From Morchella semilibera (lineage: Eukaryota > Ascomycota > Pezizomycetes > Pezizales > Morchellaceae): DNA of 64,000 bases. The notes below the pieces were generated by a model that searched no databases, was not told the DNA's origin, and worked only from the letters and a program-made list of their open reading frames with translations. Shown here piece after piece: positions 876 to 60,600 of the stretch (positions are counted from its first letter, which is position 1; every line of letters begins with the position of its first letter). The DNA lies in the NCBI GenBank assembly GCA_009192285.1, contig CM018603.1, forward strand, positions 2,472,588-2,536,587, in the 5' to 3' direction. A program made the translations under genes and the position numbers.

Positions 876-892
876 GAGTGACTCACCGTGAC
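876..892 (+). promoter_or_regulatory. Bipartite GAGTGAY-N5-RTGAY motif upstream of SES1
   Basis: GAGTGACTCACCGTGAC is one of 19 dispersed copies of a two-part motif seen across the window's non-coding DNA. It lies about 190 bp upstream of the seryl-tRNA synthetase start codon. The two half-sites (GTGAC and GTGAC) are 10 bp apart start to start. A role as a protein-binding site is inference. Confidence 0.4.
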
Positions 893-1082
893 ACAACCCT
901 AACCCAGATCGTTGCTATCTCAGTCCGGATCAAAATGTTTGATACCCCTCCCCCACCTTCCCCGTTTCCATCCAACCATAATAAACCCGCCAACCTGCCC
1001 ACTAGTACAACCTTTTTTTTCTTCCGTCCCCTTTCCTCCCTCGTTATCTCCATTTTAAAGAGCTGCGAAAGGTAAGGAAACA

Positions 1083-2834
1083 ATGCTTGACGTTCTCAGC
1101 TTTATTGAGTCCAGGGGCGGAAACCCCGAAGCCATCCGCGAGAGCCAGCGCCGCAGACATGCTCCTGTCGAAGCTGTGGACGAGGTGATCACGATGTTTG
1201 AGGAGGCGAGAGTCGGTGAGTAGAGCAGCTCTTTTGCGACGGGACACTTTATTGGTGGTGGTAGGCTTGCTTACTGACGAGGGGACCTGCAGCAAGATAC
1301 AATGTCAACCAGAAGGGGAGCGAGATCAACACCAACCAAAAGGAAATTGGGGCTAAGAAGAAGGTGACTACTTGCCTGCCCGTCATGAGATATCACACCT
1401 ACACAAGCCAACTAACCACCCCAAACCATAGGCCAAGGAGGATGCCTCCGAGCTTCTCGAGAAGAAGACCAAGCTCGAAGCCGAGAAGAAGGAACTCGAG
1501 CTTCTCGCCGTCGAGAAGGAAAAGACTCTCAACGCAAAGCTGGGCACAATCGGGAACTTGGTCCACAACACTGTCCCAGTGAGCAACAATGAGGTACATT
1601 TACCCCCCCATCTCCTTCTCTACCTGAGGTACCCTATTATCTAACCCACCGGCCAGGACAACAACGAACTAATCCGTACCTGGGCGCCCCCTGGCGTTAC
1701 CCCTACCAAGCGCGACTGCCTCTCGCACCACGACGTCCTCACACGCCTAGACGGGTACGAAGCCGAGCGCGGCGTCAAGGTCGTCGGCCACCGCGGCTAC
1801 TTCCTCAAGCGCTGGGGTGTCTTCCTCAACCAGGCGCTCATCAACTATGGACTTGAGTTCCTCTCCAGCAAAGGCTACACGCCTCTGCAGGCACCCCAGT
1901 TCATGCTCAAGGACATGATGGCCAAGACAGCCCAGCTCGAACAGTTTGACGAGGAGCTCTACAAAGTCATTGACGGCGACGAGCAGAACGACAAGTACCT
2001 CATCGCAACCTCAGAGCAGCCCATCTCTGCCCTCCACGCAGACGAGTGGCTGATGAGCAAGGAGCTACCTATCCACTATGCGGGATTCTCGTCATGCTAC
2101 CGCCGTGAGGCTGGTTCTCACGGGAAGGATGCCTGGGGCATCTTCCGTGTCCACCAATTCGAAAAGGTCCCCTCCCCCCTCCCCTCTCACTTCATTACTA
2201 ACACCCCCCACCAACCCACAGGTCGAGCAATTCGTCATCACGGAGCCCGAAAAGTCATGGGAAGAATTTGACAAGATGATCGCCTACAGCGAGGAATTCT
2301 ACCAATCCCTGGGTCTCCCCTACCGCGTGGTTGCCATCGTCTCCGGCGCGCTTAACAACGCAGCCGCCAAAAATACGACCTCGAGGCCTGGTTTCCCTTC
2401 CAGGGCGAATACAAGGAGCTCGTCTCGTGCTCAAACTGCACCGACTACCAGAGCCGCAACCTCGAGATCCGCTACGGCACAAAGACGCAAACAGAGGCGA
2501 ACAAGAAGTATGTGCACTGCCTCAACTCGACGCTGTGCGCGACCGAGAGGGCGCTCTGCTGCTTGATGGAGAATTACCAGACTGAGGAGGTAGGATTGCT
2601 GTGTTCCCCCGCCCCGCCCCGCCCTGTGTGCATTATGGTGATGATGTTATGATGATGGAGTGCTAATGGGTGGACCGGTGGCAGGGCATGAATATTCCGG
2701 AGCCGCTGCGTAAATACATCCCGGGGGCGCCAGAGTTTATCCCGTTCTCTAAGGAGCTCTCGACCAACAGCACCTCGCTGCGCAAGGGTGCCCCGAAGCC
2801 GAAGGCGAAGGCTGAGAAGGCCGAGGCGAAATAA
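1083..2834 (+). CDS. SES1: Seryl-tRNA synthetase, cytosolic (six exons, one frame break)
   Basis: This class II enzyme charges tRNA-Ser with serine in the cytosol. Exons read as 1083-1215, 1293-1363, 1432-1593, 1657-2166, 2222-2589 and 2685-2834, giving about 464 residues, close to the family's usual 460. The N-terminal part is the coiled-coil tRNA-binding arm (KEIGAKKK and the Lys/Glu-rich stretch after it). The catalytic domain shows the family sequences ATSEQPISALH, FSSCYRREAGSHG (motif 2) and CSNCTDYQSRNLEIRYG. The C-terminal tail is Lys/Ala-rich. No targeting peptide is visible before MLDVLSFIE, so it is the cytosolic form. In exon 5 the frame breaks at an A run (2369-2373). SGALNNAAAK is in one frame and YDLEAWFPFQGEYKE in the next, and exon 5 is 368 nt where 369 would keep phase, so one A appears to be missing. 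The gene is convergent with ERG10. Confidence 0.95.
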
Positions 2835-3272
2835 ACTAGCAATTTATCTCCCTCCTCCTCCTCCTTATCTTCTTCCCCTTCATCTTCTTCATCTTCGTGT
2901 CGTGATACCCCGCGGGTAGGAACTCTTATGTAAATATAGATTTTATTTCCATCTAAAATGGCCGGAAGCGAGTAACGAAGATCTGGTTCTGGTACATGTA
3001 CCCCAATGTTATGTGACCCTAGCTATATAGCTACATGTAGCTAGCCAAACATGCAATGTTTGTGAAACGAAACAACACCGCGTGATATTTCATGAATGAA
3101 ACGCATCAAATCATTACAAGCCCAAAAAGAGAAAGAGAAAGAAACAAAAACAATATGAATGATTTTTTTATTTATTTTGCCGAAAGTGTTCCTAGAAATC
3201 CCATTTCAATACATCATTATAAAACCTTTTTAAAAAAAAATGCATCTAATTCCCTCTCCCAGCGATAGCAAC
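2835..3272. other. Convergent intergenic spacer, SES1 / ERG10 3' ends
   Basis: The spacer holds the 3' ends of two convergent genes. It contains two TACATGTA palindromes 39 bp apart (2993-3000, 3032-3039), an A/T-rich tract near 3150-3240 suited to polyadenylation on either strand, and nothing coding. Confidence 0.6.
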
Positions 3273-4689
<1,417 letters not shown>

Positions 4690-6250
4690 TTTTGTTTTTT
4701 GTTTTCTTTTCGAAAGATGGAGTTGATAGGAAGCTGATGATGATGATGTCTAGAGAGAAAAGGAGGTGGGGAAGTAGAGATTGATGATGGTGGCGGGGGG
4801 GGGGAAGAAGTTTACTTATGTGAAGCTTTCTCGGCGGGGTTTTGTGCTGCTCGAACTGCTGCAAGAAGAAGGGTGCAGCTTTACTAGAGAGAGGCTAAAC
4901 CCGTTTAGTCTGGTGGGCTGGGCAGGGTCCGAGCACCGCTCTGGTTGTTTTGCTGTTGAGTAAACACACTCACATCATGTAACTCTTCTTCTTCTACCCA
5001 CTACATCTATAAACACACACAACGTTTGTTGAAATAACAATGGGCCCAACGTTTCCCCTTTCCTGTCTACCACCCAAACGGGGAAAAGTTCAGGGGGAGA
5101 AAAAACACCCACATTGGGATTCTCCCTCGGCTCGCACAGGGATTAATATTAGTATTCCCAACAAGCTTAAACGATCTGCTCTAGATCAGCGAAGAAGATG
5201 AGTATCGTATGATGTTTCTATCTCCAGAGTGGCTTACATATAACTTGTCCATAGAATGGGTCGAGAGGCTGCGCATACGTACTACATGCTACTCCCAGAC
5301 GGAAGAGGCTCCGTCAATGGGGGGGCGGGGGCTCTCGATCTTATGGAACATGGCTGGGACATTTAATCGTCCCTTTTTTGTCATATTTGCAGACGTCACT
5401 ATCGTACCATTGCAATTGGCTTCCAGAAGGATATGAGTGGATTGATGTGAGTGAATACTTGCGTATACCTACCCGGCTAACCACAGTTGAAGAGGCGGGA
5501 CAAGGTACAGATGCAAGTGTTCCCTCAACACCAAAGTGCACAACCCACAGACAAGCCCGCCGCACCGTAAACCAGCACCGCCAGCCCACTAATCACCGAC
5601 AAAACGGCCATTGGTATTTGTTTGTTCAGTCATCCCTCGGTCAGGACGGATCACAAATCAGCCCCAGCCCGGAGATCATGACTCCCCCCGTTATGTGTAT
5701 ACAGTGCTAGGTACTACCTACACTCCAACAGCACACATGTAGACCATCCAACCCCATACGTGAAAGAGGTGAATGTGCCCACAGCCACCCATCTAGAGAG
5801 CATGCGGTGCCGAGAAGGGAACCCCATAGCAGTACCACCACAATAACCACGACCTCTAGTGCTCTCCCCTACCCACCCATTGTGATCGTTGCTTCCAAGA
5901 CGTTTGTATTGTACGCTCGCCCACGGCGAAATGGTGGTCCCTTTTATTATATGTACATACATGTATGTATGCGTTACATTGGCAAAGCCCCATGACATAC
6001 CTGCTGTACCTATGAAAATCCTGCGGGGATGGCCAAAGAAGTGGCGCGAGTGACAATCCATGATCCGTCGCCTCGCCGCCTGGCGGCCGAGGGAGGAGGC
6101 TGCATCATGTATCTACGAGTAGCTATCTCTCTTCGAAGAAACCAAGAATTCCACATCTTTTATTTTTCCACTGTCTACACCATTTCTCAGATATACAACA
6201 AAAAAAAGAACAAAGCAAAACAAAACAAAAGAGAACGCATCCAGAACCCA
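4690..6250. other. Intergenic region between ERG10 5' end and LYS2 3' end
   Basis: This 1.56 kb holds the ERG10 promoter at its left end (read on the minus strand) and the LYS2 3' flank at its right end. Short open frames are present but none resembles a protein family or has convincing splice structure. It contains a TACATGTA palindrome at 5958-5965 and a bipartite GAGTGAY-N5-RTGAY motif at 6048-6064, 90 bp apart. An A-rich tract at 6198-6235 is plausible for LYS2 polyadenylation. Confidence 0.55.
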
Positions 6251-10761: not shown

Positions 10762-11604
10762 TGGGGGGAGAGCGAGGTTTCAAGATCAATGGGAATTGAA
10801 ATTGGGGTCGAGGGAGGAGAGGAGTTGTGGGTAGAATCTGTGAATATACAGAAGAGAGAGAGAGTTTTTTGGTTGTTGCCCCACATTTACAAATTGCCTG
10901 TGCCAAGACATGCCACCCCGCTATGACGAGAGATTGCGCGCGAGTGACAGCCCATGACAGGGAAAAGACGAGGGAATTGAGTATGTTCTGCCCTTGACTG
11001 GCCCCTTCCATTGACGTTATAACAGTTGGGGGCAGTATGATTAACTGAATACCTGACATATACTTCTATCACTCCGTACAGACACCCTACGTGGGCGATT
11101 ACGGGGTACCGTAATGGCTATCGAGTCTGGCTTAAAGGCAGAGTCTATGTTTATCCCCGGTAATAACGAGGTGCCCTTTCTAAACGTCCAATCTACAAGC
11201 CTGGCATGCGTAGGATCCAAGCAGAGAGCGATTGACACTCTCTAGAAGAGTAAACGGGGGTGCGTGAGGAGAGAATTATGTATGTGCCTTGGTTCGAAAC
11301 CGGGCGCAGACACAATCAAAGGACTGTTTACTGCTTATATAATAATGCCCGGATCAGGAGGCCCCTTACCCCATCGGGTTGCCATGACAAATAATGCTTA
11401 TTGACACCTGCCCGCACATCTGCAATTGTCTTCAGGTATGAGGAACAATCTACTCTACTCTACATTGTAGTTTTTCTTGAAATCTCCTCTACAGCCACGC
11501 TCATCATTGTTCTCCTTACAATCCCAATCACAGCTAACTAGAGTATAGTTTTCTAATTACCACATCTACATACACACTCTCCTAGACCTCCCCCCAGAGC
11601 TCCA
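10762..11604. promoter_or_regulatory. Shared divergent promoter region, LYS2 / ecd
   Basis: This 843-bp gap separates the LYS2 start (minus) from the ecd start (plus), so it must hold both promoters. It carries one bipartite GAGTGAY-N5-RTGAY motif at 10942-10958, about 180 bp upstream of LYS2. The ecd side ends in a C/T-rich tract (11540-11604). I saw no perfect general-control (TGACTCA) site. The TACTCTAC string recurs here (11450-11462). Confidence 0.6.
10942..10958 (+). promoter_or_regulatory. Bipartite motif copy in the LYS2 upstream region
   Basis: GAGTGACAGCCCATGAC has the same layout as the copy upstream of SES1: GTGAC and ATGAC half-sites with starts 10 bp apart. It lies about 180 bp from the LYS2 start codon. 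Function is unknown. Confidence 0.4.
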
Positions 11605-13487: not shown

Positions 13488-16172
13488 AGTAGACGTACCA
13501 CCACCTCCCGCCCCCTGCAAATAATATTGGTAGCGTGAAAAGGCATAATAGCTATGACTTGTATGGGGCGATAGGTCCTGCAGAGCAGGTACTAGTTGAT
13601 GTCTTTCTGCCCCATAGCTTGGTGTCCGTGACTGCATGCTTAGAACAGGATTGATTGCATGCCGCCCATCGAATCGATAACCGCCCAAAGTAAGCTCCTG
13701 CCATGAAAGCCTGACCTGCGCATCACAGGGGATCACTCGGTGCCGTCGACGAGTGATACATCGTGATGCATGCCTCCTGTAATATGGTGGGCCGAGAAGC
13801 CTGGCCCCGGGGCGGGTGCTTGTCCCTCTGTAGCCACGGACGGATGGGCAGATGGACACGGCGCCCATGTAATAGGGGCGGCCTGAATAGCAGGACAAGA
13901 AGTAGGCGACGGGTTTTTTTCTCTTTCGTAATTGTAATTGGTCGATGGGTGCGGTGCGGTTTTGTCCCTTGTGGTGGTGGTGGTGTCTTGCCGGTTTCTT
14001 AAGCGGTTGCACGGCTACATGTTCATCATAGCCCGCGTATGAAGGGGCTCCCATACGTACGTACCTATAACAGAAAGTACCACCGCCCGCTGATCCCCAA
14101 GCGGGTGTTTCAATACACGGCCTCTACAAGTGACCATTGACAGGCCATCTACTATTGACGCGGGGCGCCACTGGTATTCTAGTGTGCAGCACGGGGCGAC
14201 ATATGTAGTCCCGCAGACAGAAAGATGGCTAGGGGCAATAGTATGGCGAGCCAAAGACGCGGTGCGGGAAACGATGTAGCAGAACATGTAGAGATACAGC
14301 TGCGCCGGAGGGGGAATACATACATAGCTACATGTAGGCAATTGGCAGACCCGACCCTGGCTGACCGGAGCCACCGATGCTAGGGCCCGGGACTGCGGCG
14401 GCGTAGAGTGCTAGAGCAGGAATATCAATATATCGCCGACAGAGCAGAGTTTAAATATATATAGCCCTGTCCCGGAATTAACCCCCCCCCCCTTGAAATC
14501 GCAGAATATCACTCCTGGTATAAGAATATTCCTGGGGGTATCACTGTTATTACATCTGTCGGTATACCTACATATACACATGGCTGCCTTACTTTATGTG
14601 TATATTCAAGGCACACCCCACCAGCACCAGCATCCCATGCATCTACCTTCCCTCTACTCTGCCCGCCAAATCTGATATCCAATCCAGCTTTACATACGCA
14701 TCCGCCATAAAAGCCCCAACCAAGGACCTACCAGGCCACCAAAACCCCAAGCCAGCCAGAGATCCACTACAACCCACCGGCCGCCCCTACATGATGATAC
14801 TCCAATCGCTAGTCGCCATCGCGGCAGACCTGTTTCTAGTCGGTGTGTTTTGGGTCGTGCCTGTCTGGGCACTTGAGAAGGATGGCTTTCAGCTTGATGA
14901 CAGCCTTGGTTTATCGATGTACGGAGTCAGTGAGCATGCGTCAGTCCTAGCTTGAGCTATTAGGCTGCTAGCCCTGGTGTTGTCATGTACGGAGTCGGTG
15001 AGCCCTCCTACGTAGTACTGCCCTTACATATCCTGCCTGACTGGCGCTGTTGAGGTGGGGTGGGGGGGGGGTCCTAACTAGATATAGATATACCTACCCC
15101 TCTATATATTCCGGTATTCTTTATCTGCAGCTCACTGTAGCATGTTTCTATAAAGACTACGTACCAGCGTCTAGCGAGTGGTGTTTGTGGGGCTTGTCTA
15201 TCCCCAGCCTGCACGAGGAGGTGTTTTAAGTACATGTATGTATGCATGCATGCATGGCTTCCGGGATGCAGGCTCTGCGTACATGTATTTATCAGTAATG
15301 AGGTCCGTCAAAGTGCATGTAGCGTATCTAGGGCTAAGTACTGTCCGGTACATATGTGCCGCTATATGTTGTGACCGGCGCTCTATTCTACGGGGCCCGC
15401 CAAGAAAAGCAATGGAAAACATAACCACACCAGTCCCTCTCTCTCTCCCTTCCTCCCCACTATCTCGAGACCCATCATTCACCACCGTTCTTTTCACTCT
15501 CCCCCGCTCACCCCATTCTTTTCTCCGCTAGAACCAGAAATAAAACGGGGGCAGGGTGTCCATGAGTACTGTAACCAATCAACCAAGCAACGACTCTACA
15601 AGTACAAGGCTTTCTGCAAGTGGCCCCAAAAGGCCCCCCGGACCTGATACTATAGACTGAGGGTATCAGATATCGATATACCTCCTTTAGGTTCCTATTT
15701 TCTGTTGTTACTTCCCCTGTTAAGACAAACTTGATTTGATTTGGCTGGTGGTTGATTTGACCAGCTAGCCAGGAGATGTAGTTGCGGCAGTCCAACCCGC
15801 CACTGTCCCCCCAGTTACCCCACCCCCCGACGTATATACCCTATATATGCAATCACTCCCCCCCAGTTTCTGGCCGCTAACAACCGGGGGGCCCATATAC
15901 ATCGAGACACCATCACCAAGATGCAAACACACCCACTGCACCCAACCACCGCCTCGTGCTCCGCATAGCATATCAACTATCCCCTCAACATGCAACCCAA
16001 TCGTGGGGTACCATTCACACCATACTCGTATATAACGAAAAAAAAAAAAAACCCCGTATGTATACGACCCTGACGTGACCGACCGGTAACTCTTTCGTTT
16101 AGCCTAGCTAGCTAGCAAGGCTGGGTCTATTTGAATTCCCCCCGTGCCCGTAAAGTCGGTATAGTAGAGGGG
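13488..16172. other. Gene-free stretch downstream of ecd
   Basis: No convincing gene in 2.7 kb. It contains an inverted pair of bipartite motifs (13722-13767), TACATGTA palindromes at 14329-14336, 15231-15238 and 15280-15287, a (TGCA)n-like run at 15240-15256, and C- or G-runs at 14481-14492 and 15059-15070. Open frames here are short, lack family similarity and have no splice context. Confidence 0.5.
13722..13767. promoter_or_regulatory. Back-to-back pair of bipartite motifs
   Basis: A minus-strand copy (13722-13738) and a plus-strand copy (13751-13767) point away from each other across a 12-bp GC-rich spacer. This gives a near-palindrome about 46 bp long whose outer bases (GCATCAC / GTGATGC) also match. 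The same arrangement recurs at 20724-20771 with a 14-bp spacer, which argues for a real paired site. Confidence 0.45.
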
Positions 16173-16387: not shown

Positions 16388-17948
16388 GCACTATGCACGC
16401 CTAGAACGCCAGCCAGCTCTGGCCATAGTGCTTAGCATTTAGGTCAGAATCAGGTGCACCATGAGCCTGAGTAGCGCCCCTAGGGTTCCTCGCCTTGTTG
16501 GGCGCTGATGATTGAATGACTCCATTGATCAGAAGAGTTCGAACTGGCCCAATAGGAGCCAAACGCACACATACCTAACAATGCCACTGTAAACCAATGA
16601 AAATCTAACAGCACCGTTAGAGAGTCTCTCCTTGTCATCCTGGTTGACCTTTATGGCCCAGATTATGGATACAGACACCACCTGCAATACGATCATTGAC
16701 ACTGCGCCGTACCACATCCCAAATAGCACGACTCCAAACCCGTGCTACCTAAGCCTATCATAACTGAAGCCATCTTCTATGTCCCTCCGAAGGTTCTATA
16801 TCTTCTAACTCTTGCCGGGCCGCAAAACCCGTTCAATACGGCCAACACACGTTGGAGAATCCCACCAGAATCGGCCGTGTAAGCTTCAGAATATACTAGT
16901 AGGCCATAAACTTGGCGCAACGTACTCTGGCCAAAAGAAGATTTGGCCGATCTTGAGTATGCGGAAGGGTACCTGCTTTGTGGAACCCCTCACCCCCCCC
17001 CCCTCCCCCCTCGAGGTATAAAGTGGAGTCGTAAAACAAAAGGGAGCGGCAGGCATGGAAGAATCGTTGGCACTATAGATTACTCAGTTGCTATACTATC
17101 AACATCAGTAACGGCCAATAATATACTGAAACAAACGATTTCCATAGAAAACGGCAAACCTGTACCAGCCGGGTCTCACGAAGGATATCAGCCACCCAGA
17201 CCTTACCATGTCACCCGACTAGAATCGAATAGTCAGAAGTCCATTTCCAGATGATAAAGATTAACGGTAGTTCTGGTCCCAGTTACATGGGGTTTCAACT
17301 TTATGACTTGGTCATTTTTGTAGGGTTAGGGTCGTGCGTGAATTATGGCCACAAACCGAACCTCACATCAGGAGAGTAGGGTTCGGAGAGCGGTTTGAGC
17401 ACCTCTCTATCGCTATAGCTGTTTGTTCAAATAATAGAGAGGTTGTTGACATTCGAATCATGAGTGATCACTCACTGTTTTGCAAACTGATTCAAGATAT
17501 GTCAATGATATCTAGGCTGGTTTACCAAATCATAGTTATCCTCAGATCCGCGTTACAGAACCGCTTGTGGTCCATATACTATATTAGGTATTTCATTCCT
17601 TATATTGCAACCAAATATCGTTTGTATAATCGATTTGTCGAAAACCCTCATCCCAACCTGAAGGTCATATGCCACTCTATAGCTATAGACCTCCACCCTA
17701 GTGAGTAACACCTTCCGATTAATTGATATGATCAGTTTAAATGTTAAATAATCCTGGTGATTGCTGTGCTGGAGACCTACATGTACATCTGCCCTAAAGC
17801 GATATATGGAGAGAACACTATATATACCCTAGGCAACAATGTCGTCCCTTCAAACCAAAACCAAACCCAGCTTCAGGGAAAGCAAGGCCAACTGAGATCT
17901 CTCTATGCTCTGGTTACTTGGAAGAGCACATGTGTCCGCGATACTGAA
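16388..17948. other. Gene-free stretch
   Basis: No gene is supported. A hydrophobic 66-codon minus-strand frame at 16529-16729 and a 124-codon plus-strand frame at 17334-17708 have no recognisable family features or splice signals. A C run lies at 16991-17007, TTAGGG occurs once near 17327, and TACATGTA at 17778-17785. Confidence 0.45.
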
Positions 17949-20723: not shown

Positions 20724-20771
20724 ATCACGATGTATCACTCGAATACCAACATGCGAGTGATCTTTCATGAC
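20724..20771. promoter_or_regulatory. Second back-to-back pair of bipartite motifs
   Basis: A minus-strand copy (20724-20740) and a plus-strand copy (20755-20771) diverge across a 14-bp spacer, the same orientation as the pair at 13722-13767. The minus-strand copy is identical over its 17 bases to the plus-strand copy at 13751-13767. Confidence 0.45.
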
Positions 20772-23700
20772 GATGATGTATTGATGACCAGGGTGCGAAA
20801 TACGAAGCAAAGCGGCTGAAGATATGAAATCGCCAATAGCCAATAGCCAATAGTTGAGGGAGCCCCTGGGCCCAAACTTCCTGATCATTGCCACAACCCA
20901 CTTAATCGAATCCAAAGTCGCGCGACACGCAACAATCTCCAGCTCTGTCACCAGTGGGGCAGGTAGGATGAAGAGGAGGTCCACGATCACTCTACTCCAG
21001 TCACCACGCCGACCGGTCATTTCCAACCCCCCCGGCGTCTAAAACAGAAACCGAAGCCACCACCACAGAGTTAGGCTGCTTCTACTTCGTTTTCACGATC
21101 GTAAACCTCATGTCGCGCACTTAATTCCCCCCTCACCCATACACTCATATATTTTTCTACCATGACGATCGATAATTTTGGGATCGTCGTCTACCCGTCT
21201 CATGCCATACTCAGCTAATCCCATCCGTCCACCCCAGCTAGCATCGCACAGGCCTGCTCTGCCACCCCCCCCCCCCAATCCTACGCCTGCCCCCCGTTGC
21301 ACGACAAATTTCGGGAGGTCTTCCACCTTGACGCGCCTCCCGGGGGGGTGAGGTCCCCCATGCAAAAACAAAAATATCTTGACATGGGGTTGAGCCTCAA
21401 AATGGTCAGACGGCGGATAACACAATGGTCATTCGACGGATTTGACTGGTTTCAAGAGACGTTACCAAATTGGTCCTTTTGATGGGATGGATGGCTTACT
21501 AAGTGAGAAGTGCTCATGCGGAGAACCTCTACTCTACATGAATGGCCATGTTTGGTCTGTTGCCACCAGTAAGGTAAAGTATCCTCATCACAAGAGATAG
21601 AAACTCGTGTAGACATCGCTACTGCCTATTACTAGTTCAAGGAGACAGTTCCATATGGCCATCCATCGTTGACTGGTACCCAACCCTGTTGTTACTCAAA
21701 GAAAGTAAACCCCCCGACCAATCGATCGATGCAGCCGATCGAGCATAAGCTTCATCTTCCAAAGGAGAAATCCATTGACTAAAGGCAAGTAAGGTATTTA
21801 GATAGGGATTAAGGACATACGACCCCACGGTGCGCGATCAATGACAGCTTTAATCGGATAGAAATCATACCCGCAACGAGGAAGACATACACCGGGGCAG
21901 TCCGTGTAGGTGTGGGTGTGTGAGTAAGGTAACGCAAGGCAAGGCAGAAGAAAAAAATTCAATGCGCGAAGCGAGCAAAAAAGGAATCAAGGGCGATGAT
22001 GGTTACCAGTAGCAATTGTTCGCCCATAGATGCGGGTACGAAGATGTAATACCTACGCGTTAGAGTGAAAAATCCGATCGGAGGATTATTTCTTCCGAGG
22101 AGGCGTGGACCACTCCACATACACGTTTTCATGGAATATCACTCGAAAATGACTAGAGGCGGGTTTTAACAATGCGGGATGAACAGGCATTTGATAATTA
22201 AACGTATGCAATACTCGTGTTCTATAAGGAACGTAAGTTTTTGTCTGTACAAACCATCCAGTCCGCCCAGAAACTAATCCATTGTGATGTTTAGGAATTG
22301 TCAGTAAACATGTTCCGCGTACCCAATATACTTGGATATATCGCCAGATTCAGTACTGACACCCTTGATCAGCTGAGACCTAGAGGTGCCAACCGCAAGG
22401 GAATCCTTACTTTAAGACCGAAACCCATGATATGAGTCCCAAAGTTTCTTCCCAGAATCCGTGGCCGGTATTGATCCATCGATTAACTTTGGTAACCGGT
22501 ACGATAATGATTCAGACTTTCTCGTTCCATTTACTTCTACATGGTACGAGTTTATTTGACCTTTACTTTGTCTTCATAGATCTAAATCTATTAACCCATA
22601 ATATTTCGCTTGTCAACTTATCAACTTTAACCATCCCAACCTAGCTAGCATAGTATGTACTCGTTTCACGACAAACTCATCGATTAACCTGTTAACTCTG
22701 GCGGCAGATGTGATAACAGTGCCTGGCGATTTTTCGACCCTTCAATTCTCTTTGTCTCTATTGGTTAATATTCATCAATTGCGCAATTAATAACTCTACT
22801 TACCCGGTAAAAGAACCCCTCTCAATTTCGGCAGTGTTATCTTCTATGAGCATTTCGGTTGGCTCTTCCCGTTCTCCATTCATACAAACTTTGTACCTAC
22901 GCCATCACTCTACCTGACCATGGTACCTGCGGTGACCAAACCCCAATTGGTCTTCAACGCTAGGCCGTTGGAGCTCAGCGTTCCAGACAGAGCTCAGAAC
23001 CTGCACCTCTCTAAAGTCAGCGAATTTTCTCTCTTTCGGCGGGGTATGAGCTGAATAGTACTTACGTAGACATATCAACACTGCCAGGAAGCCGCTTCCA
23101 AGAAAACTTATACAACATAATATACTTGGTCGTTTAGTAAAAGGTCGTGAAAACTGGCGGCTATGCTTTGGGCAGAGCTTCTTTCTATTGGCCAAACCCG
23201 AATAAACAGCCTCCAACAGCTCTCAGGTCTATCACTCCGCAGTGAGCGCCAGTGTATGACTATGATTGGATCCCAGGCCCATGACTGATATTGGGAGTGA
23301 CGCTCTTCTATCGACATCTTAAACAAGGCTGAGCTGCCCCATCCCATGGGTTGTGCAGCATGCTTTTCAAATCAGGTGACTGTGAGACCTATCCATCCGT
23401 TTCCATCTATTCTTGCGCACTGGCCATTGGCTGCCGTCTGGGATATTAGCAGCCGTTTCAAATTCTGCGAACAGACAGGAGTAGGATAGGACCACTGACA
23501 AACCAACTGGTTCGACATTTTCGACTCCTATCTTGCCTTCTCCCGTCTCCAGAAGCAGCTCCTTGAGCTCTTTAGCGAGAGTCGCTGCCATTTATATATG
23601 CCTTGCGACATGCGTGCGCCGCGCGTGTCTGTGCCTACATACCTGCTATAATTCTGCATTCAACACTCAGGTTCCCTCACGTGACATCCATATTCAGTGA

Positions 23701-34450: not shown

Positions 34451-36378
34451 GGGAAATGAGGAGCACGTTTTCTCGTGCATCTCTCCACATGTTGTGCGCT
34501 CCTGTGCGTGTTTTCGATCGCGCGCGCGCCTGCCCGGCGCTTCGTGGGGGTACTCTAGTTCCCTTTACCCTACTACTCTCCCCTGCTAGTGACTCTACTC
34601 TACAGTTTACTTTGCAGTTCTCCATCTTCGTCCCCAACTTTGCTGACATATCTTAGTAGTACCACCCCTCTTGGAAGCAGATTCTATGCAATTCTCCCCG
34701 ATCGAGTACCAAAGTGATCGGCCGAGTCCCTGTTTTCGGCTACTGCTCGATTTTTCTCTGGGCGGCAACAGCATTGGGTAAATCGCTCAAAGTGATATCA
34801 TGAATGTGCCCTACATACATACATACTTACATACATACAAGAGCCACCACGCCAGTGCCACCTGCACAGCAAAGTTCCAGGGGATTTATTTAGGCCACGA
34901 GAGGAGAGTGGAGAAGAGGAGTTGAGCGTATGTAGCGATGATGATGATGATGATGATGAGGGTAGTGGTGGGGAGGTAAAAAACCAGAGACAGGTAATCG
35001 TAACAGCAAGGACGGGATCGCGGACTGTCTGGAACCGGGGAGTCAGTCAATCGGACCGTTCACAGATCGTCACTCGCGCACGCCGGGGGCCCAAATCGGT
35101 TAAGCAGGCAGAAACAAGGAATTTCTAGAAGTTCCACAGCTATTGTTTCAACATCTTAGCAGGACTGTCGTTTTCTTTCTCGCATCTCGATGACTCCTGT
35201 TGCCCCGGTCCCTTTTCCTTGGGGCCTGGGGGATACATATTGTTTGTTTTGTCGGGTTTTTTGTGGTCAATCCGAATGGGATGGCCCGGTCCCGGTCAAG
35301 ATCGCGCACGCAGCAGGTAGGCGAACTTATTCTTCCTGTTCTAAGCGGGATACGCAGTGTAATTCTTTTGATCTGGGCTTGGGGTAATATATCGTAACTA
35401 TATGAATTTCCCCCCTTCCGATACAGTCGGTTCAGTATCGTTTGCTCGATGTCCTTTCTTTATTATGAAGCTGCGATTGCGGCGTTTTACACCTTTAGTA
35501 GATGTGCTGGCCATACCCCTGTGTAGAGGGGTAATTAATAGGTAGAGTGCTACTAGGTATCTAGGTGGTGTAGTGGTGTACCTATGAGTCCAGATGATAG
35601 AGGACTAGCTAGGTCTATCAAGGTTCAGATGAAATTTGAAGAGGCGACCGTGGTGACCTGCCTATCGATTGCCTTTATAGGTAGCTAACTGCTGTAATGG
35701 CCAATATTCAAACTGCAACAAGGTGCCGTTCGGAGGCCCTGCATCACCGAAAGGTCCCGATCTTTTGAAACTGGGCCGATGTTGAAAATTATAATCCGGT
35801 CCATAAGCCGATAAAGTACACCCGAGACCGAAGCGTGGGAGTGAAGCTGTACCAGTAGACATATATATCGTTACGTACCGAAATTAGAGTTCCTATCGAA
35901 CAATTATGTGAGAGCTTCTTAAGAACCAACATTCTGGCCAGGTGCTTATGTGTGATGTGACAACGCCGAGGCTTGGGATTGTCGCTAGTAAATACCAAAG
36001 TAATCCCTTGGTCACCTAGAACCTGGATGGTAGGAACTCTTTCCACTGCCGCGACGACATAAGACATTCAATCAGTAGGTGGCTAACCGCACTCTTCAAG
36101 AGTTGCCTGGCCCGTGCCCCATACATTTCATGGGCCAAAGATAGATCTCGCCTAGCTGTCTGCGGGGTTTTCGTAGGCAAATAACTGAGTATCTCCACGA
36201 TATTAGCAGTGCCACGAGAGGAAATAGTTTCGCAACTGGTCGAATTTGATATCTATGCCATAAGGTTCTGTAAGTGTCATCTGTAAGATAAGTCACATGA
36301 TTAATGCGAACCCCGCTGCTGTGAGGTCCCTAATACGGTTCAGTTTGCATAATAGGTGTTGTGAGAAGCTAGCTTACC
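34451..36378. other. Gene-free stretch
   Basis: No gene is supported. It has an ACAT tandem run (34815-34840), a GAT trinucleotide run (34937-34960), and a minus-strand bipartite motif at 35059-35075. The remaining open frames are short and unrecognised. Confidence 0.5.
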
Positions 36379-44006: not shown

Positions 44007-45643
44007 TAATCAATCAATGTAGTGGGATGTGAGGTCACTATTATGTCAGTGGTATTGGTACCTCCGGATGACACGCCAGTTATTATGAATTAAGTACCTT
44101 TCATTGCACTACAGTCAAAGTAACGAAGCCCTCACTTTTTACCATTGACGCTCCACCTCTATATTTAGAATAGGATAGAACTCGATTGCCGAGTGATACC
44201 CCGTGATGTAATTATCTAGCCGTAGGCCATGCTGCGGATTAAATATTGATACTTGAGTTACTGGAGTGGATCTTTAAGAATGATCTCTAACACGTATAAG
44301 GGTATCTCTACAGGGTTTTTTAGAAGGTCAGAAGTGCCATAGTGCCTTTTCGGATGTTTGATGCAAAGTACAGTCGAATCTCCCTATAAAGGTACAAGTG
44401 GAGTGCGGCTTTGGTCGCATATGTAGTCATGTGCAGTGTGCATTGCAGTCGCGGTGTGCTTTATAGTTCGTAATGGTTAATTTGTCTCTGCCCCTGAGCG
44501 GCTTGATATAATCCTTTATAATGTGTAGTGTAGGTTGTGTTATCTTGGCAATGGTTCCGTGCTATGTAGTCTGGCAGATTGTCGTTGGGCTACTTGTACT
44601 CTTGTTTAAAAGAACGCTTGTTCTTAGTGAAAAACTATATTATATAGGGAGAGCTTTTCCCTTTGCTTTGTTAATTTAAGAATTCATCAGTTCGATTAAG
44701 TCTCACAATTCACATAAGTTAAAATCTTACAACTAATCATTGCTTCCGCTAAAAGTTATAGAATTCTCCAACTTGAGTAATAGTATATGGTACTTCCAAT
44801 CACGGGAGCGATTTTTTGTCTAAACCAATTTGCAACCATCCTTGACCAATAGAAATGCTTCCTAATGGCGATGGACAAGCTTATACTATTTAGACGTTGG
44901 GACCAAAGATTAGTACCCTTATACTAAGAGTTATTTTGCATGAGCAAAGTCCAGAAGGACCATAAACACATAAATGACACGTGCACGGTTATGTACTTAG
45001 TATGTTACAAAATAACATTCTTACGAGTTAGTATGATACACTCTGGCATATATCAGTAGTATGATTGACGGTTTGATTAGAAGAGTTCATAAACGGGTCC
45101 CTGTACGAGTAGATCTATATGTAGCTTGTGTTACGGATTTTGAGGTCATGCATCATGAGGGTGAACTACATGTAGGTCATTTTGCACTGCGTGGTTGGGT
45201 TTTATAATACATTATATTCCACATCAGTTTTACTGATATGATAAATGTGCTATCCCCTCAAGGCAAGTATCAAGTGTTTCTTTGCAATAGGGTAGCGGCG
45301 GGTTAATAGCCAATCAGGTACATATTGATGTCCTAGAAGCTTCAAGTCATGCGTCTGAAACCTCACAGCTCTTCCTTCTTTTTTCTGTCATTTGCTCCCA
45401 TCTCTTGAGCTCTTGAGAGCCAATGACACTTGAATGGAACTTAAACCCATGGTGTAAGAGGACACCTTGGAGATGGAGGAAACATACATGGAACGAAGGC
45501 TGCATAGGGGGGATCGTGGCACCTTTTATACCAACTATTGTGATATCGCCGAGGTCAAAATCCCTTCCCCCCGGCTATCATCAGAAAAGGACCAGATATC
45601 TATATCCTCACCAAAAACTATATTTATAACCACACTGCACGGA
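44007..45643. other. Gene-free stretch upstream of ankyrin gene B
   Basis: AT-rich and without a supported gene. A bipartite motif lies at 44191-44207 and TACATGTA at 45167-45174. TATA-like sequences at about 45525 and 45618-45630 point to the ankyrin gene B promoter. The sequence at 45509-45530 resembles 557-577 near the left edge (GGGGATCGTGGC followed by CCTTTTATA). Confidence 0.45.
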
Positions 45644-46426: not shown

Positions 46427-48999
46427 TCATGGTGGCGTGGGAGATGGAAATTAGTTTTGCAATTGCCAATAACCCGAGAGTTGGGCTATTCTTCTAGAGG
46501 TAAAAGGGTACGCTTTTTATGGGCTTGCAGTTTTTTTTTGTAGTGCGAAGCAGGCTTCACGTATAGGCCTCGGACCAAATTTTGTATGCTTAGTTATGGG
46601 TGGCTCCTTTCTGCTCAGGTGCGTGGAGATGGACCATGAATCCAACGGGTTGAACGGTTGGAAAAAATAAATTTCCGACCACTAGCTGACGTGCAGAACC
46701 CTGTCCCCTAACCTAGAATGTGATGTGTTGTTGGATCACAAACTCTCACTCGGCGCCTCATCCTGTACAGTATTGATTAGTTGATTGATAGCTCATACAT
46801 GTATACAGCCCGTACTCTAGGTTATGACATAATGGGGTATACATGTGCACTCCCACAGGAATTTTCTAATATTCACGCGTCCTAGTTCAAGTGTACGTGC
46901 ACGTCAAGCATATTTGCACAGGTTTTTATCGGATTTAATCGATCACTTGTTTCACCTTGTATCACTTTTAGAATTTACCTTATCGCACAATTCAATCAAG
47001 CAACTAAGGAAGTTCCCCTATTAACCTTACTTCCAGCCAACCTATGCTCCCGTGGCGTGTACCGGTGGGTAATACCTAAGCCATCTTTTGCCTGCGGAGG
47101 CGTATTTAATTTGGGTGGCGTTCCGGATTGCTCTATGACTTATTACATGTAACTACTGTTGTAGGGAAAAGGGGAGGAAAAAGAAATGCAGTTTTGCGGC
47201 TTGCATATATTCCAGGACAGAACCTGGAGTACTGTCCACGGGGTGATGATGATGGATACTGGGTGTTGAGGGATCCACCAAACAGAAACAGCCACAATAC
47301 CCAGTGAGTGACAGTACATGTACTGGATAGAATCGGTATGATACTGAAGCACCCCCTAAACGGCCACCGAGCTAGTAATTCAAGAAGGAGTTCAAATGGC
47401 TGCGTCTATTTACTAAAATTCTTGGTAACGTAAACATTGAAAGCCTATCTACATATGGGCCCGGATAAAGCGGCCATGAAATCTATATTTCGACCAAGTT
47501 GAAGCTGATGATCATGACATCGGGTTTTCACTTCGTAACTACTTAACAGTGTTCTCTATTAGACAAATACAAAAAGCAGGGACAGTCTCATATAGAAAGC
47601 CCAAACTTAATCGCAAAGACGGCCAACCGCAATATTCACTTGAAGAAGTTCTATGTCTAGGCGAGGTTATATATCTAGGCCTAGGACCGATCAAGAAGGT
47701 TTTGAAGACACGTGTTTTAGTCAATAACTATGCCGCCTAGTTGAGGTACTAAGATTCTGAATATGTACGAGGGAAAGAAAATACAAGAGGCTCCTCACGT
47801 CCTGCAATAATAAAGTTCTTACAGTACATCCAACCCAGTAGAGTCCCCTTATAGCACGAGGTCGGCACAGTGTCCTTAGATGGGTCTAATTTATTCAGTT
47901 AATACTCAAGTCGTTGTTCCCGGATCTTCGATCATGATTTAAGGTCTTTGGGCTTTGGTGACTGTTTGTGATTTATATTTAAAGCTCCAACCCCCCTGTG
48001 GCCAGGATTTCGTAGAAAAGGCCATGACCATGAACCATAGTTCCCGGATAAATCGAATTTACCTTCTGATGGACATCTGTTCATCCCCAAAGTGGTAACT
48101 TTCCAGTTATAAATGGTTGTGCTTTGGTATTGTGGGTGCAGCCCAGGCGGACTTTTTCTTACCTTTTTTTCTCGGCAACTCAAATAATTCAGCACCCGCC
48201 TCTTGTTCTGGCAAGCCCACTGTCTTGGGTCCGGTGCTTGGTCCTCCGTGGACATACGGCCTATTTATTTGGTGGAAGATCAAGGATGTCTTCTTGGCAA
48301 TGGTTTCTAATACAAATAAGAGTTTATATATTGACTACATGTAGCCACACAAGAGCCAAGGAAGTAGGGTTTGGGATTCTTTACTGGCCTAAGTGCTTGT
48401 TACGGCCGTCCAATGTAATCAAGAGGGAATAATTTAATCGTTGACATGCATCAACTAAGACATCCGGAAACTATCCCGAAACAAAACAAAATGGTCGAAT
48501 ACCAGATATTGAATGTGCTGCCTTAGTTTGCAAGAAAGGGCCCCAAGGGAAAATCTTGGTACATAGAGGATTTCGACATGTGCTGGACTAGATAAGTAAT
48601 GATGAATGTGAAAGCTAGAAGCGCTTCCATGTATTGAATTGAGTTCCAGTAACTATAATTTAGAGTTGACATGACGAGATACGAGTTGGTACTACATACA
48701 TGTATGTATTTGCATGGAGCTTGGGCCATTCAGTAACCCTGACCCTTACCATTAGCACCCCACCTTTTCTGTTGCATCTTGACAACAGCCCTAACCACAA
48801 GTAACCATCCGCTCCATCACCTGCACGCGAACACCTTTACTCCACCGTTTCGTGTTTTCAAAGCTTTACACCCCCTCGATCAACCAGACTCTAATTAACT
48901 ACTAACATCACATCTATTCCTTCCAACTAATACTCAATATATCCATACAAGATATACGCCCATCAGCGAGATATCAACTAAAATAACACCGAAAGCACC
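46427..48999. other. Gene-free stretch upstream of NOT2
   Basis: No gene is supported in 2.6 kb. It has a minus-strand bipartite motif at 46735-46751, a plus-strand variant at 47306-47322 overlapping a TACATGTA palindrome (47315-47322), and further TACATGTA copies at 46796, 47144, 48336 and 48697. A 63-codon frame at 47549-47740 has no recognisable features. The last 250 bp are C/T- and A-rich and serve as the NOT2 promoter. Confidence 0.5.
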
Positions 49000-53450: not shown

Positions 53451-54455
53451 AGGATAAGATAAAAAGAGCCTTTTAAGGTAAGGGATCTCTAGGGAATCGA
53501 GCGTTCAAGTTTGATTTGGTTTTTTTTCTTCATACAAGACTTACGGCTAGATGGCATTGAGGGGCGTTGGGAATGGGATTATTGGTTTTTGTTCTGTCTC
53601 TTGTTTATGGGTAGCCCAATAGAGTTTGCATGCACTTGAAATTTTCTGGGGTTAGCGGTAGTTGTATAGGGGCATGCACATAAACTTTATCTGGGTATTA
53701 GCTGAAAGAGGGTGATGTTACCTCATGCACTATCGTCCAATTTGAGTACCGAGTGATAGTTTATGATTTGAACAATGAGATGAGTTGGTAGTACAGACGG
53801 TACCGCGGTAGCTCTATGCACAGGTGTTTAAAGGTCAAAGCAGTGAGATTCCTCTATGCAATTGCAGGTTTCCCCCAATTATATAATTATGTTACTTTAT
53901 GTCGCGCGCTCATGTAGGCACATCCGGCTATCAGCTGCCAACCAGGGTAGACTACATACGCGTTTGAGGCTCTTTCTCAAAGTTGCTTACTTAAGACGCG
54001 CGCGGTTCTCACACCCGAATTCGAAATCGCGTTTTCCCCGCCTCTGTAAACCCAGTTATTCTCTCTGCGTTGCCTGTCTATTATTTTATTAGAACCCGTT
54101 TGCGCTTATTAACTCGTCAGCTTGCTTTTGGGCGTGTGTGTACGTGCTTGCTTGCTTGCTTGCTTGCCTGTGCTTTGCTGCTGCGCTGTGTTGTGTGGAC
54201 TTTCCCTTTCCCTTGCCCACTTCCGCCTTCGTCCGTTGGCCCTTCCCCTCCTCCTCTTTTCTGGTCGTCCTGCTCCTTTATTCTTCCTCCTTCCCGATCC
54301 CTCTCCCCCGCCTGATGATCACTTCCAGCCGACAGACACTCTCCTCACTACCTTGCTCTCTCATCCCTCCTGACATCACAACCTCTCAACGCTCTCTACC
54401 AGATCGATAATACTCAAGGCTTTCGCTCCTCTCAACTCCTCCTTCCGAATAGAAA
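53451..54455. promoter_or_regulatory. Intergenic region and SAP30 leader
   Basis: A bipartite motif lies at 53751-53767, 300 bp past the preceding gene. The right half (54130-54455) is strongly C/T-rich, with a short CTTG tandem run at 54149-54170, as expected for a transcribed leader. Cys/Leu-rich open frames there are compositional artefacts. Confidence 0.5.
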
Positions 54456-55114: not shown

Positions 55115-56454
55115 ACCACCAGCCAGCTCCTAGTTTAGCGTCCTCCTTTCGATCACTTTCCCACACTCCAAACCGACAATGTTTATTCCTTACTACCCAT
55201 TTCTTTCTGGCGCGGTTGTCTGGTTTGCATTCTTTCGATATTCTGATTCTTTTCTCCTGTTTCTTTTGGCATAATTTGTGGACGGTGTTTTGGTGTTTGT
55301 TCTATGGATCTTTTTTATTCTTTTTCCTTTCATCGTAACTATTATCATTGTGGATTTGATTCATTGTCCCTGTATAAATGTAACATGGACTGGTTTGCCA
55401 TTATTTTACCGTCGAGATTAGTTGGTTAGCATCTAGGGGTTTCGGTTCTTATACATTAATGTTGACATGATAGGTGAAGCGGATGACGCCGGCCAGTCAC
55501 TAGAAGGCTCTGCCTACATGGCGACAAGATGTTAGATAAATTCTTTTCAAAATAAATCAATTTGCGTAAAATCACCCACTGACCCTTGAGCTTGCTAGTT
55601 ACATGTATCTATATAACTAGATCCGGATATATATATGAAAGTTGACAGAAGTCCAGCAGGTGACTAAATACATGTATGTTACACACGTCCCTCCCAAAAA
55701 GGAAATATTGTGTTTCTATATTGAGGATGTCTGCACGAATTATCACTCGAACCAGCTGTTGCGCACGGACTTGCAGCGGCTAGTGCAGTTATTCCTTCCC
55801 AACCCCCAAGTGATGCATGCACATGTAGCCCGCAGAAACGTCCACTGTACTCAGATGCGCGCAGATGCGCGCAGATGATGGATGTCGCATCATCAGGTAT
55901 CACTCGCACATGTGTTGCGAGAGCTTCTGATGAGAATCAAGATCGGATTCGCTGTTGGTGTTTCCCTGTGTGTTCATGCTGCAGCTATAGTGCGTGTTGG
56001 TCAAGGTTTGACTGTCTTACGGCTACCAGGCTATGGACGCATCCATCATTGGGACAAGTCATGTACCGGTGGGCGAGGTGTTTTTGATTAGGTAGCTCTA
56101 TTCCAACTGCGTAGAGTAGGGAGGGACATTCTAAGTGTTGGGAATTGTTGAACTCCCCTGGTTATGGTTGACCTTTTGGGCCTGTGGAGAAAAGGCGGGA
56201 GAACCGGGTAGCTGTCTAATGAGGAGAAATATACTTGGTGAATAGAACATAGAGAGGGCTGCAAGATATATGAACATGTATCCGGATCGCCTCCCCTCTT
56301 CCTTACGCAAATGCGTTAGTTCCAACAGGCTCCTCGAATAGGCTACATAGGCAGTAGACGTACATTTACCTTAATTTATTTGTTGTAGTGGATGTATGCG
56401 GCGTTGAGTGAAATTCATTGTTATGGGCGTTATCCCACATATGAATCTATAGAT
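55115..56454. other. Gene-free stretch after SAP30
   Basis: The SAP30 3' flank is T-rich to about 55400. TACATGTA palindromes are at 55600-55607 and 55669-55676, and minus-strand bipartite motifs at 55732-55748 and 55889-55905. A short GCAGATGCGC tandem repeat lies at 55855-55877. No gene is supported. Confidence 0.5.
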
Positions 56455-57281: not shown

Positions 57282-57610
57282 TAAGGGCCCGTTTGGACAA
57301 CCTTAGATTATTTCTTTGGATTACTGGGTAGATTGGATTATCAGAAAGCGAGAATGATAATCATTATAATCATAATCAGCGGATAATCTAAACGTCCAGA
57401 TAACGTTGAAGGATTAGGCTTTCAGGACATCTGTGTTGTGGGAATAATCACCTCCGGAGGTGATTATTTTCTTGGCGGATTATTGGGATAATCGGGAGTT
57501 CCAAATGCAATTACACAAACAACCTAGATTATTGTGATAATCCAAAAGTCGATAATACATCGGATTATCGCCAATAATCTAAATTATTGGGTTGTCCGAA
57601 TGGGCCCTAA
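57282..57610. mobile_element. PIF/Harbinger (Tourist-like) MITE, 323 bp, with TAA target duplications
   Basis: The element (57285-57607) starts GGGCCCGTTTGGACAACC and ends with the inverse, GGTTGTCCGAATGGGCCC, two mismatches in 18. It is flanked on both sides by TAA (57282-57284 and 57608-57610), the three-base duplication of PIF/Harbinger elements. The GGGCC-GTTTGG start is also the classic Tourist terminus. There is no coding capacity. The interior is dense in GGATTAT/ATAATCC words, and the centre is a perfect 26-base palindrome (57443-57468). The intact ends and duplication suggest a young copy. An active transposase elsewhere in the genome would be needed to move it. Confidence 0.88.
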
Positions 57611-60600
57611 GTGTGTATGTATGTTACTGACCTCTTTATCCTTAGGTCGCAACAACTGATACTAGCTTGTGGTCTTTTTGGACCAAGAATTTCTTTCCAG
57701 TTTTCACTTAGAAGTTCGGCAAGCGCCTCCTACAAAGGTTCAAATTCACGGAGACATTCAAAATCAGCCTCCTTTTCTTTGAGCTATTGGCAGTAATCGC
57801 AGCGTCCATGACTGTTAAAGTGTTTGGAGTTTTCACCATTGCCATAGGAAATTCATTACGACCAAAGGGGTAGGAAGCCCCAGTTTGGGGGATGGCGTGC
57901 AAAGTATACTCTATATGTTTACATGTAGTAAATTAGACCATCGAGCGTTACGAGAAGAGTGAGTCTTGGTGTTTGATTATGCCACCACCGCACTACTACA
58001 TGTAGGACGTTGGAGAATACATCAAATGATTCGATAAACTACGGACGCCCTTCTGGTATCTTTCTCACTACTCAATTGGTTCAACTATCGGTGAATTACC
58101 CCACACAAACTTCAACGCATCTACTAATGCCTTTACACTTACATGTAAGCTTCCTGGAATTTTCCCCGACCTCCCCCCCTCCAACCACCATCGATGCTCT
58201 AATTCTCTATTAATTGGGAATTGATCTTGGTGGATCCATCGATTAGTTCATCCCCTCGAGGGTATGCGTGAGGAGCATCTAGGTAAATTGTTTTGCTGAT
58301 GCTTTCCCCTTCGAATTATCCACTGATTAGCCTCAAAAGCTACTACTAGTAGAGCCCTCTACTCACACGTACAACTTTACCTTACACTCTTCCCTTACAT
58401 TCCACACCAACACAGCTTTAACCCCATACTACAGTTCTAAAAGAGGAAGGGAAAAATGGAATACCAGCGCTTGCACCAGAAAAAGCCCCCCTCATGAATC
58501 CCGAGTACATCTTAGGGTGGCATTCTAGATCTAGTAACATTCATGATATAGATACATGTAGCTACCTAAATCTTAATATTTCAAAATTTCCCTAGCCGAG
58601 CGATGAACATTTCTGGTAGGCACAGCCAGTAGGTTATAATTGTCCGAGTGATAATTCATGATTATACTCAAACATAAACTAAACATTAATCACGGCGCAC
58701 TAGTCCTACTATGCATGGATACTATATCCTTTACTAGGAAGGGCATTCATTACTTACCAAAAATTTGGACCATATGATTCTGGGAATTCTGACCTGGCCC
58801 GGCGCGGGGGTAATCGGTATTTCCTGGTCAATGATTATTACCTTGGCTGGCCCTACAATTCGTCAATATTTCGTCGCTAAGGTAGTTTTGTTATTGGCAC
58901 AGAAAGCTAAGGGCTATATACATAAACGACTAGATCTATAGATATATAGACGCACACAAATCGAGGCTCGTTTAACAAAGTCTTTATCATTTGATTATAT
59001 ATATGTGCCCAGGAACACATCAACGCAGATCACTAAAGCTTTAGAGATTATATTATTGGGGGAAGAATGTCACCAGGCGGCAGTCATAGAAACCAGCAGC
59101 TAGTAGGGGCGATCAACAATACGATTAACGGTGTTTTATGGACCAAAATCTACCCCAAAGTTATGGGACACATAGCTTCGTGATGAGTGGTCTTATACAA
59201 GTACAGTTTATGGCTAATGATAGCCCCTGCTCTTACAAGAAATCCCCCTCGTAGGGTTTCCTGTCTACTAGTTTTGCGCTGGTTCGTTCAATTAATGATA
59301 TTATCACGGAGGATGAACAGGTAAAGGGTAACTTACGAAGAAAGTGACCCTAGAGATCTATAATAACCTATCCGAAGTGCGACTTTACCCAACGACTACA
59401 CTTCTAGATTAGTCTCTAGGTTCTGCCGATGGCAGAATTTATGCCAGATCTATAGATCTAAGAAATGTGAGCCGATAATCCCTGTTAAGGGTGATCATGG
59501 ACCAGTATATTTACCGTGGCCCAGACCCATGGCCATGGCCAGTCAATCTACAACCATCTTGATTGAAGGTCCGAGCTGGGACGCGTTATTGCCAATTGGT
59601 ATGTCCGGCATGGTTATGGATGGTGTACGTATGTCAAGTCGTCTGGGTGGTACTTGGGGAAGATAAGAATACGAAAACGAACCTTTGTAGAAATACGAAA
59701 ACGAGCGCCCCTTTGTAGCCGTAACGGTTTTTAATTTTACCTAAACCACTTTAACCTGGGCCCCTATATATATATATATATACGGCACGCGCCTTCAATT
59801 CAGCTTGTTCTTGCCTAACACGAGTACGTTTGATACTATGTTTACCTAAGAAGCTAGGGGATCTTTAAGTCTGCAGCATCTTAATTGGATTCAGCCAAGA
59901 CTCTGGCAAGAACCAAATCTTTGGAGCGGAATCTGGAACTTATAAGGGCCGAAACTGAAGTCAGTAGATTTGAAATTGTTTGTAATTCTAACGGCTGAGG
60001 CTGTGAGGCTGAGCTTAAAGAATCAAGCTGCATGCTTGGGTATCACATCTAGTACCTAAACCAAACTGGTTGGATTGAAATCACTCAATGGCCAAAGAGC
60101 CCTAATAGCTAGATATTACCCGGTCGAAACATAAGTACGTAATGATCGAGGTAAAGGGGTTTTCCTCCATGCGCACGCACTCAACACTGGCATTCCAGAA
60201 CCAAAGCCTTGAACCATTGGATTCAATCTACCATGAAACAACTAGTCAATTGAGCTCATGAATACCAAAAATACCTCCTCAACTGAGGCCGGCGAATTCA
60301 ATTGCGCGTCCGCCGGGGATAGTAGGTAAAAACATCCCTAACATGCACAAGTCAATGAACGTTGCAACTGTGGCTAAGTCTTCAAACCCAGATAACCATG
60401 GTTAAGGATACGGCTGACGAGTAACTATTAGCCGGGTATTCGGTCACTTCCGCGCCGGGACGGCGTCCCGAGCCGGCAGCACGGTTCGCCTAGGCCGTCC
60501 GACCACTATTTTGGTGTCTCTGTCTAAGAAGTTCAGCCCGTAAAACAGATTTTATGAGATTAGGATGTGTGTAACTCTTGATATGGTGGTCATGAACGAA

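Follow-up and report, generated by a model that had tools for sequence, protein, structure and literature searches.

A 64-kilobase (kb) window of Morchella semilibera DNA (64,000 nucleotides; assembly GCA_009192285.1, contig CM018603.1, positions 2,472,588 to 2,536,587) was found to carry a dispersed two-part motif, GAGTGAY-N5-RTGAY, in 12 exact copies counted over both strands. The motif is real in this one window: its halves keep a fixed spacing, and its copies are point-like, absent from exons, evenly spread and in part paired. From this layout we slightly favour the view that the sites are recognised by a general regulatory or boundary factor, a DNA-binding protein with two rigidly linked heads. 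Binding by a protein is what we infer from the sequence pattern, and its general or boundary role is a working hypothesis. Sites are named below by their lowest coordinate.

Abundance and internal structure of the motif

The 12 exact copies compared with a mean of 0.07 (maximum 1) in 100 dinucleotide shuffles of the window, an expectation of 0.05 under an order-2 Markov model, and a mean of 0.06 (maximum 2) for 1,963 scrambled motifs. When 4.2 million gapped 5+4-mers were enumerated, with words composed of only one or two different letters omitted from the listing, AGTGA-N7-TGAT stood at about 10 to the minus 11.7; the motif halves ranked just behind words from the TACATGTA palindrome and from a triplet repeat, GACGA/TCGTC. 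A first-pass annotation had listed 19 sites and judged them to be in excess of chance. All 19 begin with GAGTGA at the position and on the strand given there, 18 are preceded by C (the exception is 47306), 13 keep RTGAY, where "twelve or so" had been claimed, and 11 match the whole motif exactly. Site 47306 is doubtful as a motif site: it scored below 7.5 bits with a matrix built from the 12 exact sites, and 10.2 bits with a 6-site matrix for which 9-bit matches are largely noise. The list had also omitted the exact site 17457 and the sites 14498 and 3080.

The spacing of the halves was evident from the 52 GAGTGA words in the window. In 14 of these, RTGAY came six bases later, which leaves N5 after GAGTGAY; all other gaps from 0 to 25 gave 0 or 1 cases. 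One gap therefore dominates, in agreement with the fixed layout, with halves 10 base pairs (bp) apart, that had been claimed. The inverted partner RTCAY occurred at most once per gap for GAGTGA and at most three times per gap for the shorter left half GTGAY.

The refined motif is CGAGTGATAnnYYRTGAY, with 19.7 bits, of which CGAGTGAY holds 11.5, the middle 2.4 and RTGAY 5.8; in probe form it reads CGAGTGATACATCGTGAT. A 21-site set, comprising the 19 annotated sites plus 14498 and 17457, was used for the flank-column, placement and pair statistics. In this set, position 7 was A in 13 sites, and positions 10 and 11 were pyrimidines in 20 and 19 sites, respectively. The middle, earlier described as free, indeed holds little information but is not quite free. 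With the 12-site matrix, 18 sites reached at least 14 bits (the strict sites; nine on each strand), compared with 0.53 in order-4 Markov sequence. A matrix from the sites below 20 kb found 13 matches of at least 14 bits in the remainder (0.55 expected), and one from the sites beyond 20 kb found eight matches below it (0.38 expected).

An origin in chance or in the base composition of the window might be argued from its other over-represented words, namely TACATGTA and a GTGA-rich minisatellite. Moreover, when up to two mismatches were allowed, 50 matches were found versus 25 expected; because this is only a two-fold excess, counting mismatches by itself defines the motif poorly. However, the shuffle, Markov, scramble, spacing and held-out controls all speak against such an origin. 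They refute chance for this window, and we give it practically no credence.

In the explanation that we favour, each copy would be the double-stranded DNA recognition site of one abundant sequence-specific protein, either with two rigidly linked DNA-binding units or acting as a rigid dimer. The first unit would read CGAGTGAY, and the second, at a distance of ten base pairs or about one helical turn, would read RTGAY in the same orientation. The fixed ten-base offset between half-sites of like polarity suggests that a single face of the helix carries both and that the reading units are rigidly joined; the five bases between would be read weakly. The annotation had proposed a binding site for a two-subunit protein. 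This is consistent with the fixed spacing, the weak middle, the unconserved flanks, the occurrence in both orientations and the position outside genes, but a single polypeptide with two units would fit equally well.

Pairs, flanks and placement of the sites

Three pairs of neighbours lay within 35 bp of each other (29, 31 and 28 bp from start to start), compared with a random mean of 0.32 (P 0.004). Two were head-to-head (13722/13751 and 20724/20755) and one was tandem (38838/38810). Since the middle bases of the head-to-head partners are not complementary, these are putative paired binding sites rather than hairpins. An RNA element was considered as the main explanation and rejected: the strict sites are divided equally between the strands, the middles do not pair in either head-to-head pair, and Rfam gave no family at its gathering score in the window.

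The flanks were compared in two ways. Among 79 flank columns of the 21-site set, four exceeded the 95% null level (-19, -17, +28 and +48), as expected by chance. Column -17 also exceeded the 99.9% level; the head-to-head partners are located near columns -17 and -19. For the flank alignments and the known-site tests, 47306 was removed from the set and 3080 was added. When masking was limited to the 17 bases of the site in question, seven flank alignments were found among 21 sites, versus 0 to 4 in 20 random noncoding sets; one of the seven was the partner in a head-to-head pair. With all sites masked, six rows remained, representing four distinct pairs of stretches, and the 60 random sets gave at most three. 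Once the TACATGTA palindromes were masked too, a single distinct 24-bp match was left, and 13 of the 60 random sets had at least one.

These comparisons bear on whether the copies are dispersed repeats or transposon-end remnants of which only a transposase-binding core survives, as the annotation had allowed in proposing the remnant of an ancient dispersed element. The two inverted pairs, an identical 18-mer common to 13751 and 20724, and the flank alignments in excess of random sets before the palindromes were masked all speak for such an origin. However, the flank match fell to chance level after that masking, few columns exceeded the 95% level, and a scan of selected open frames from the gene-poor parts gave no transposon domain. 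We therefore regard a repeat origin as very unlikely. As the flanks are unconserved and their matches are at chance level after the sites and TACATGTA palindromes are masked, the motif is a point-like site and not a member of one repeat family with alignable flanks.

Placement was assessed on 12 gene models that we made ourselves from Pfam matches and open frames. None of the 18 strict sites was inside a gene model, and all sites of the 21-site set were outside genes (P 0.0006; 70% of the window is noncoding). The 19 annotated sites were likewise all absent from coding exons, as had been claimed. Sites occupied 10 of the 12 intergenic intervals, whereas random placement of the 14 clusters of strict sites by interval length gave a mean of 6.0 (P 0.002). 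A looser set of 21 sites (strict plus 14498, 35059 and 38810), forming 16 clusters, gave P 0.006. By gene orientation, sites were present in the gap 5' of the seryl-tRNA synthetase (SerRS) gene, in all three gaps between convergent genes, in one of the two between divergent genes and in five of the six between tandem genes. Measured to the closest gene edge, the median distance was 692 bp, versus 1,660 bp for random positions (P 0.035). The occupancy test is soft, because the models are self-made, the model at 52845-53312, which bounds two intergenic gaps, lacks Pfam support, and three large gaps of 17, 8 and 7 kb may hide genes. A 17-kb stretch at 13490-30700 without a recognisable gene or transposon domain (in the selected frames) nevertheless has seven motif copies.

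Several further results weigh against the favoured explanation, together with the mismatch excess, the flank matches before palindrome masking and the weak points of the gene models. The divergent Rsc7/ankyrin gap and the gap after NOT2 are free of sites, and NOT2, Rsc7 and the cyclin gene have no strong site near their starts. Two weak matches, 1382 and 6888, fall inside gene models, apparently in introns as judged by eye. GC content within 20 bp of the sites was raised (0.50 versus 0.455); a classical nucleosome-free region is often AT-rich. With GTGAY as the left half, gap 5 held 14 sites, and gaps 9 and 23 held seven and five; these two fit the minisatellite at 198-391, to which we tentatively ascribe them. 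It consists of ~14 copies of TCTTTTTTTTGTGA, a 14-bp unit, and provides GTGA words at regular intervals on the upstream side of the SerRS gene. Lastly, the held-out matrices were not fully independent, as the motif had been defined beforehand on the whole window, and their result is a consistency check more than a blind test.

The placement data also bear on two rival explanations. The motif might be the site of a regulon-specific transcription factor, with a window that happens to be rich in targets. Two biosynthetic or translation genes have a site ahead of their start, 876 at a distance of ~190 bp and 10942 at ~180 bp, and a two-part site of this length is usual for a dimeric factor. However, sites also occur in the three convergent gaps and in gene-poor DNA, in 10 of 12 intervals, and the functions of the neighbouring genes are unrelated; we consider this explanation unlikely. 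The even spread of sites over boundaries of every gene orientation is why a general or boundary factor is preferred to a regulon-specific activator. A core promoter element was also unsupported, as convergent gaps carry sites too. Alternatively, the sites might mark replication origins or some other chromosomal feature unrelated to transcription, such as cohesin or condensin loading sites or recombination hotspots, at which a specific protein binds. This would accord with the lack of promoter bias, the sites in gene-poor and convergent intervals, and the clustered pairs. Nevertheless, a density of about one site per 3 kb exceeds what is usual for origins, and the flanks are not AT-rich, which makes this a rather remote alternative.

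In budding yeast, chromatin and gene boundaries are organised by general regulatory factors; two of them, Abf1 and Reb1, clear nucleosomes and separate transcription units. The general or boundary factor that we favour might act likewise, removing nucleosomes and keeping adjacent transcription units apart. Within this window, the motif is information-rich, enriched and outside coding sequence, the features by which a general regulatory factor site is recognised. More speculatively, and in our opinion improbably, the sites could belong to a new fungal protein with an architectural or boundary function, stationed in nearly all intergenic intervals, with the head-to-head pairs as stronger boundaries. 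If so, such a protein would be the functional counterpart of CTCF or Abf1 in this lineage, for which we know of none.

Table 1. Motif sites and weaker matches in the window.
Class	Positions	Strand	Bits	Context
Exact	876..892	+	21.6	~190 bp upstream of SerRS ATG
Near, 2 mismatches	3080..3096	+	15.3	445-bp convergent gap SerRS/thiolase; found by matrix, absent from first list
Exact	6048..6064	+	25.6	~190 bp 3' of adenylation-carrier-reductase gene
Exact	10942..10958	+	24.0	~180 bp upstream of adenylation-carrier-reductase gene; divergent gap with SGT1
Exact	13722..13738	-	24.6	Head-to-head with 13751, 12-bp spacer
Exact	13751..13767	+	27.6	Head-to-head with 13722
Near, 1 mismatch	14498..14514	-	12.0	Absent from first list
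Exact	17457..17473	-	23.3	Absent from first list; overlaps 14-bp palindrome TGAGTGATCACTCA
Exact	20724..20740	-	27.6	Head-to-head with 20755, 14-bp spacer
Exact	20755..20771	+	23.3	Head-to-head with 20724
Near, 1 mismatch	22128..22144	-	20.5	
Near, 1 mismatch	35059..35075	-	12.9	Convergent gap cyclin/Rsc7
Near, 1 mismatch	38718..38734	-	17.7	Convergent gap cyclin/Rsc7
Near, 1 mismatch	38810..38826	-	13.2	Tandem with 38838, 11-bp spacer
Near, 2 mismatches	38838..38854	-	14.9	Tandem with 38810
Exact	44191..44207	+	28.0	Between two ankyrin genes
Near, 1 mismatch	46735..46751	-	19.3	3' of second ankyrin gene
Doubtful	47306..47322	+		Right half is part of palindrome CAGTACATGTACTG, a TACATGTA palindrome
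Exact	53751..53767	+	24.8	~700 bp upstream of SAP30-like gene
Near, 2 mismatches	55732..55748	-	16.2	Convergent gap SAP30/desaturase
Exact	55889..55905	-	25.9	Convergent gap SAP30/desaturase
Exact	58646..58662	+	27.4	Convergent gap SAP30/desaturase
Possible weak site	1382..1398	-	13.8	Within SerRS gene model, intron by eye
Weak matrix match	6888	+	10.2	Within gene model, intron by eye

Comparison with known factors

Of the known sites, the closest is that of Abf1, a two-part general regulatory factor site. For budding yeast, a table in PMC2174516 gives it as rTCAyt....Acg. Read on its other strand, RTCAY-N5-RTCACTCG, our motif has the same RTCAY half and five-base gap, and its second half starts with R where Abf1 has A. 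In contrast, that second half is RTCACTCG rather than ACG, and no member of the 21-site set has a T after RTCAY. The Abf1 consensus RTCRYNNNNNACG itself was at chance in the window (10 versus 9.4 expected; strict form 0 versus 0.6). The motif thus resembles an Abf1 site in form, yet we do not class it as one.

The CENP-B box, TTCGnnnnAnnCGGG, is also a two-part site of ~17 bp, recognised by a single protein that carries two helix-turn-helix units. The motif is similar to it in length (about 17 bp) and two-part form, but the letters are unrelated and the motif halves are direct repeats; the core of the box was near chance in the window (one copy versus 0.42 expected). Reb1, Cbf1 and Tbf1 sites are widespread fungal general-factor sites that, unlike the motif, are not two-part. 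None of their consensuses was clearly enriched (Reb1 5 versus 6.4, Cbf1 2 versus 0.8, Tbf1 4 versus 4.1), and the same was true in the window of the consensuses for Rap1, homol-D, GATA, CCAAT, Gcn4 and CRE, with one Rap1 copy versus 0.05 expected.

CTCF-type insulator motifs are long, information-rich, dispersed between genes, orientation-bearing and sometimes paired. Our motif shares these properties, whereas its sequence is unlike that of CTCF sites and a shared function is conjectural. To our knowledge, no CTCF is known in fungi, and counterparts of the general regulatory factors are poorly defined in most filamentous fungi. A 20-bit motif in nearly every intergenic interval could serve as a direct probe for fishing out a general regulatory factor, and would allow one to test whether fungi use boundary elements as animals use CTCF. 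Among the papers listed in searches of the open-licence PubMed Central literature, none evidently described the motif, which does not establish its absence from print. PMC526180 reports, for three euascomycetes, new sequences located upstream of their tRNA synthetase genes.

Gene content and other elements of the window

Pfam assignments in the window comprised SerRS, an adenylation-carrier-reductase protein, an SGT1-family protein, a cyclin, an Rsc7/Swp82 subunit and two ankyrin proteins, in addition to thiolase, NOT2, SAP30 and a cytochrome b5 domain beside a fatty-acid desaturase. Several genes appeared by eye to be split by introns. Together with Rsc7/Swp82 and SAP30, these introns indicate a filamentous ascomycete, and the intron number, GC content and spacing of genes might suit the Pezizomycetes. 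A search of solved structures backed SerRS and the adenylation enzyme. Judged by its domain order, the latter is probably the reductase of the lysine pathway; its best solved matches were peptide synthetases, the first being linear gramicidin synthase, and these do not settle that identity. No tRNA was detected by ARAGORN in the window.

There were 250 open frames of at least 65 amino acids outside the genes then known, and the 30 scanned for protein families are a selection. Seven scored above a family cut-off, 22 had no match and one was sub-threshold (She9_MDM33, E 0.079). Some of the 22 matchless frames sit in gene models (30737, 49490, 52567 and 52845).

The palindrome TACATGTA occurred in 26 copies (for example at 32, 2993, 3032, 5958, 48697 and 58553), compared with 1.1 (order-2) to 5.3 (order-4) expected. 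Its flanking positions were complementary in 17, 16 and 17 of the 26 copies at pairs 1, 3 and 4, and in 10 of 26 at pair 2, with background from pair 5. This suggests a second dispersed element, a 16-bp palindrome of the form TA-NN-TACATGTA-N'N'-TA with interchangeable inner pairs. Longer stretches around TACATGTA (3019-3045, 55594-55620 and 58546-58570) align between the flanks of sites 3080, 55732 and 58646. Some motif copies thus lie close to copies of this palindrome, which raises the possibility of a link between the two dispersed elements.

A telomere-like CCCTAACCC at 897-905 adjoins site 876 upstream of the SerRS gene; telobox words were not enriched in the window. Gene-poor DNA at 17949-18088 holds an inverted repeat with 41-nucleotide arms, 90% complementary and separated by 58 nucleotides. 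The longest perfect palindrome of the window, AATAATCACCTCCGGAGGTGATTATT, spans 26 bp at 57443-57468.

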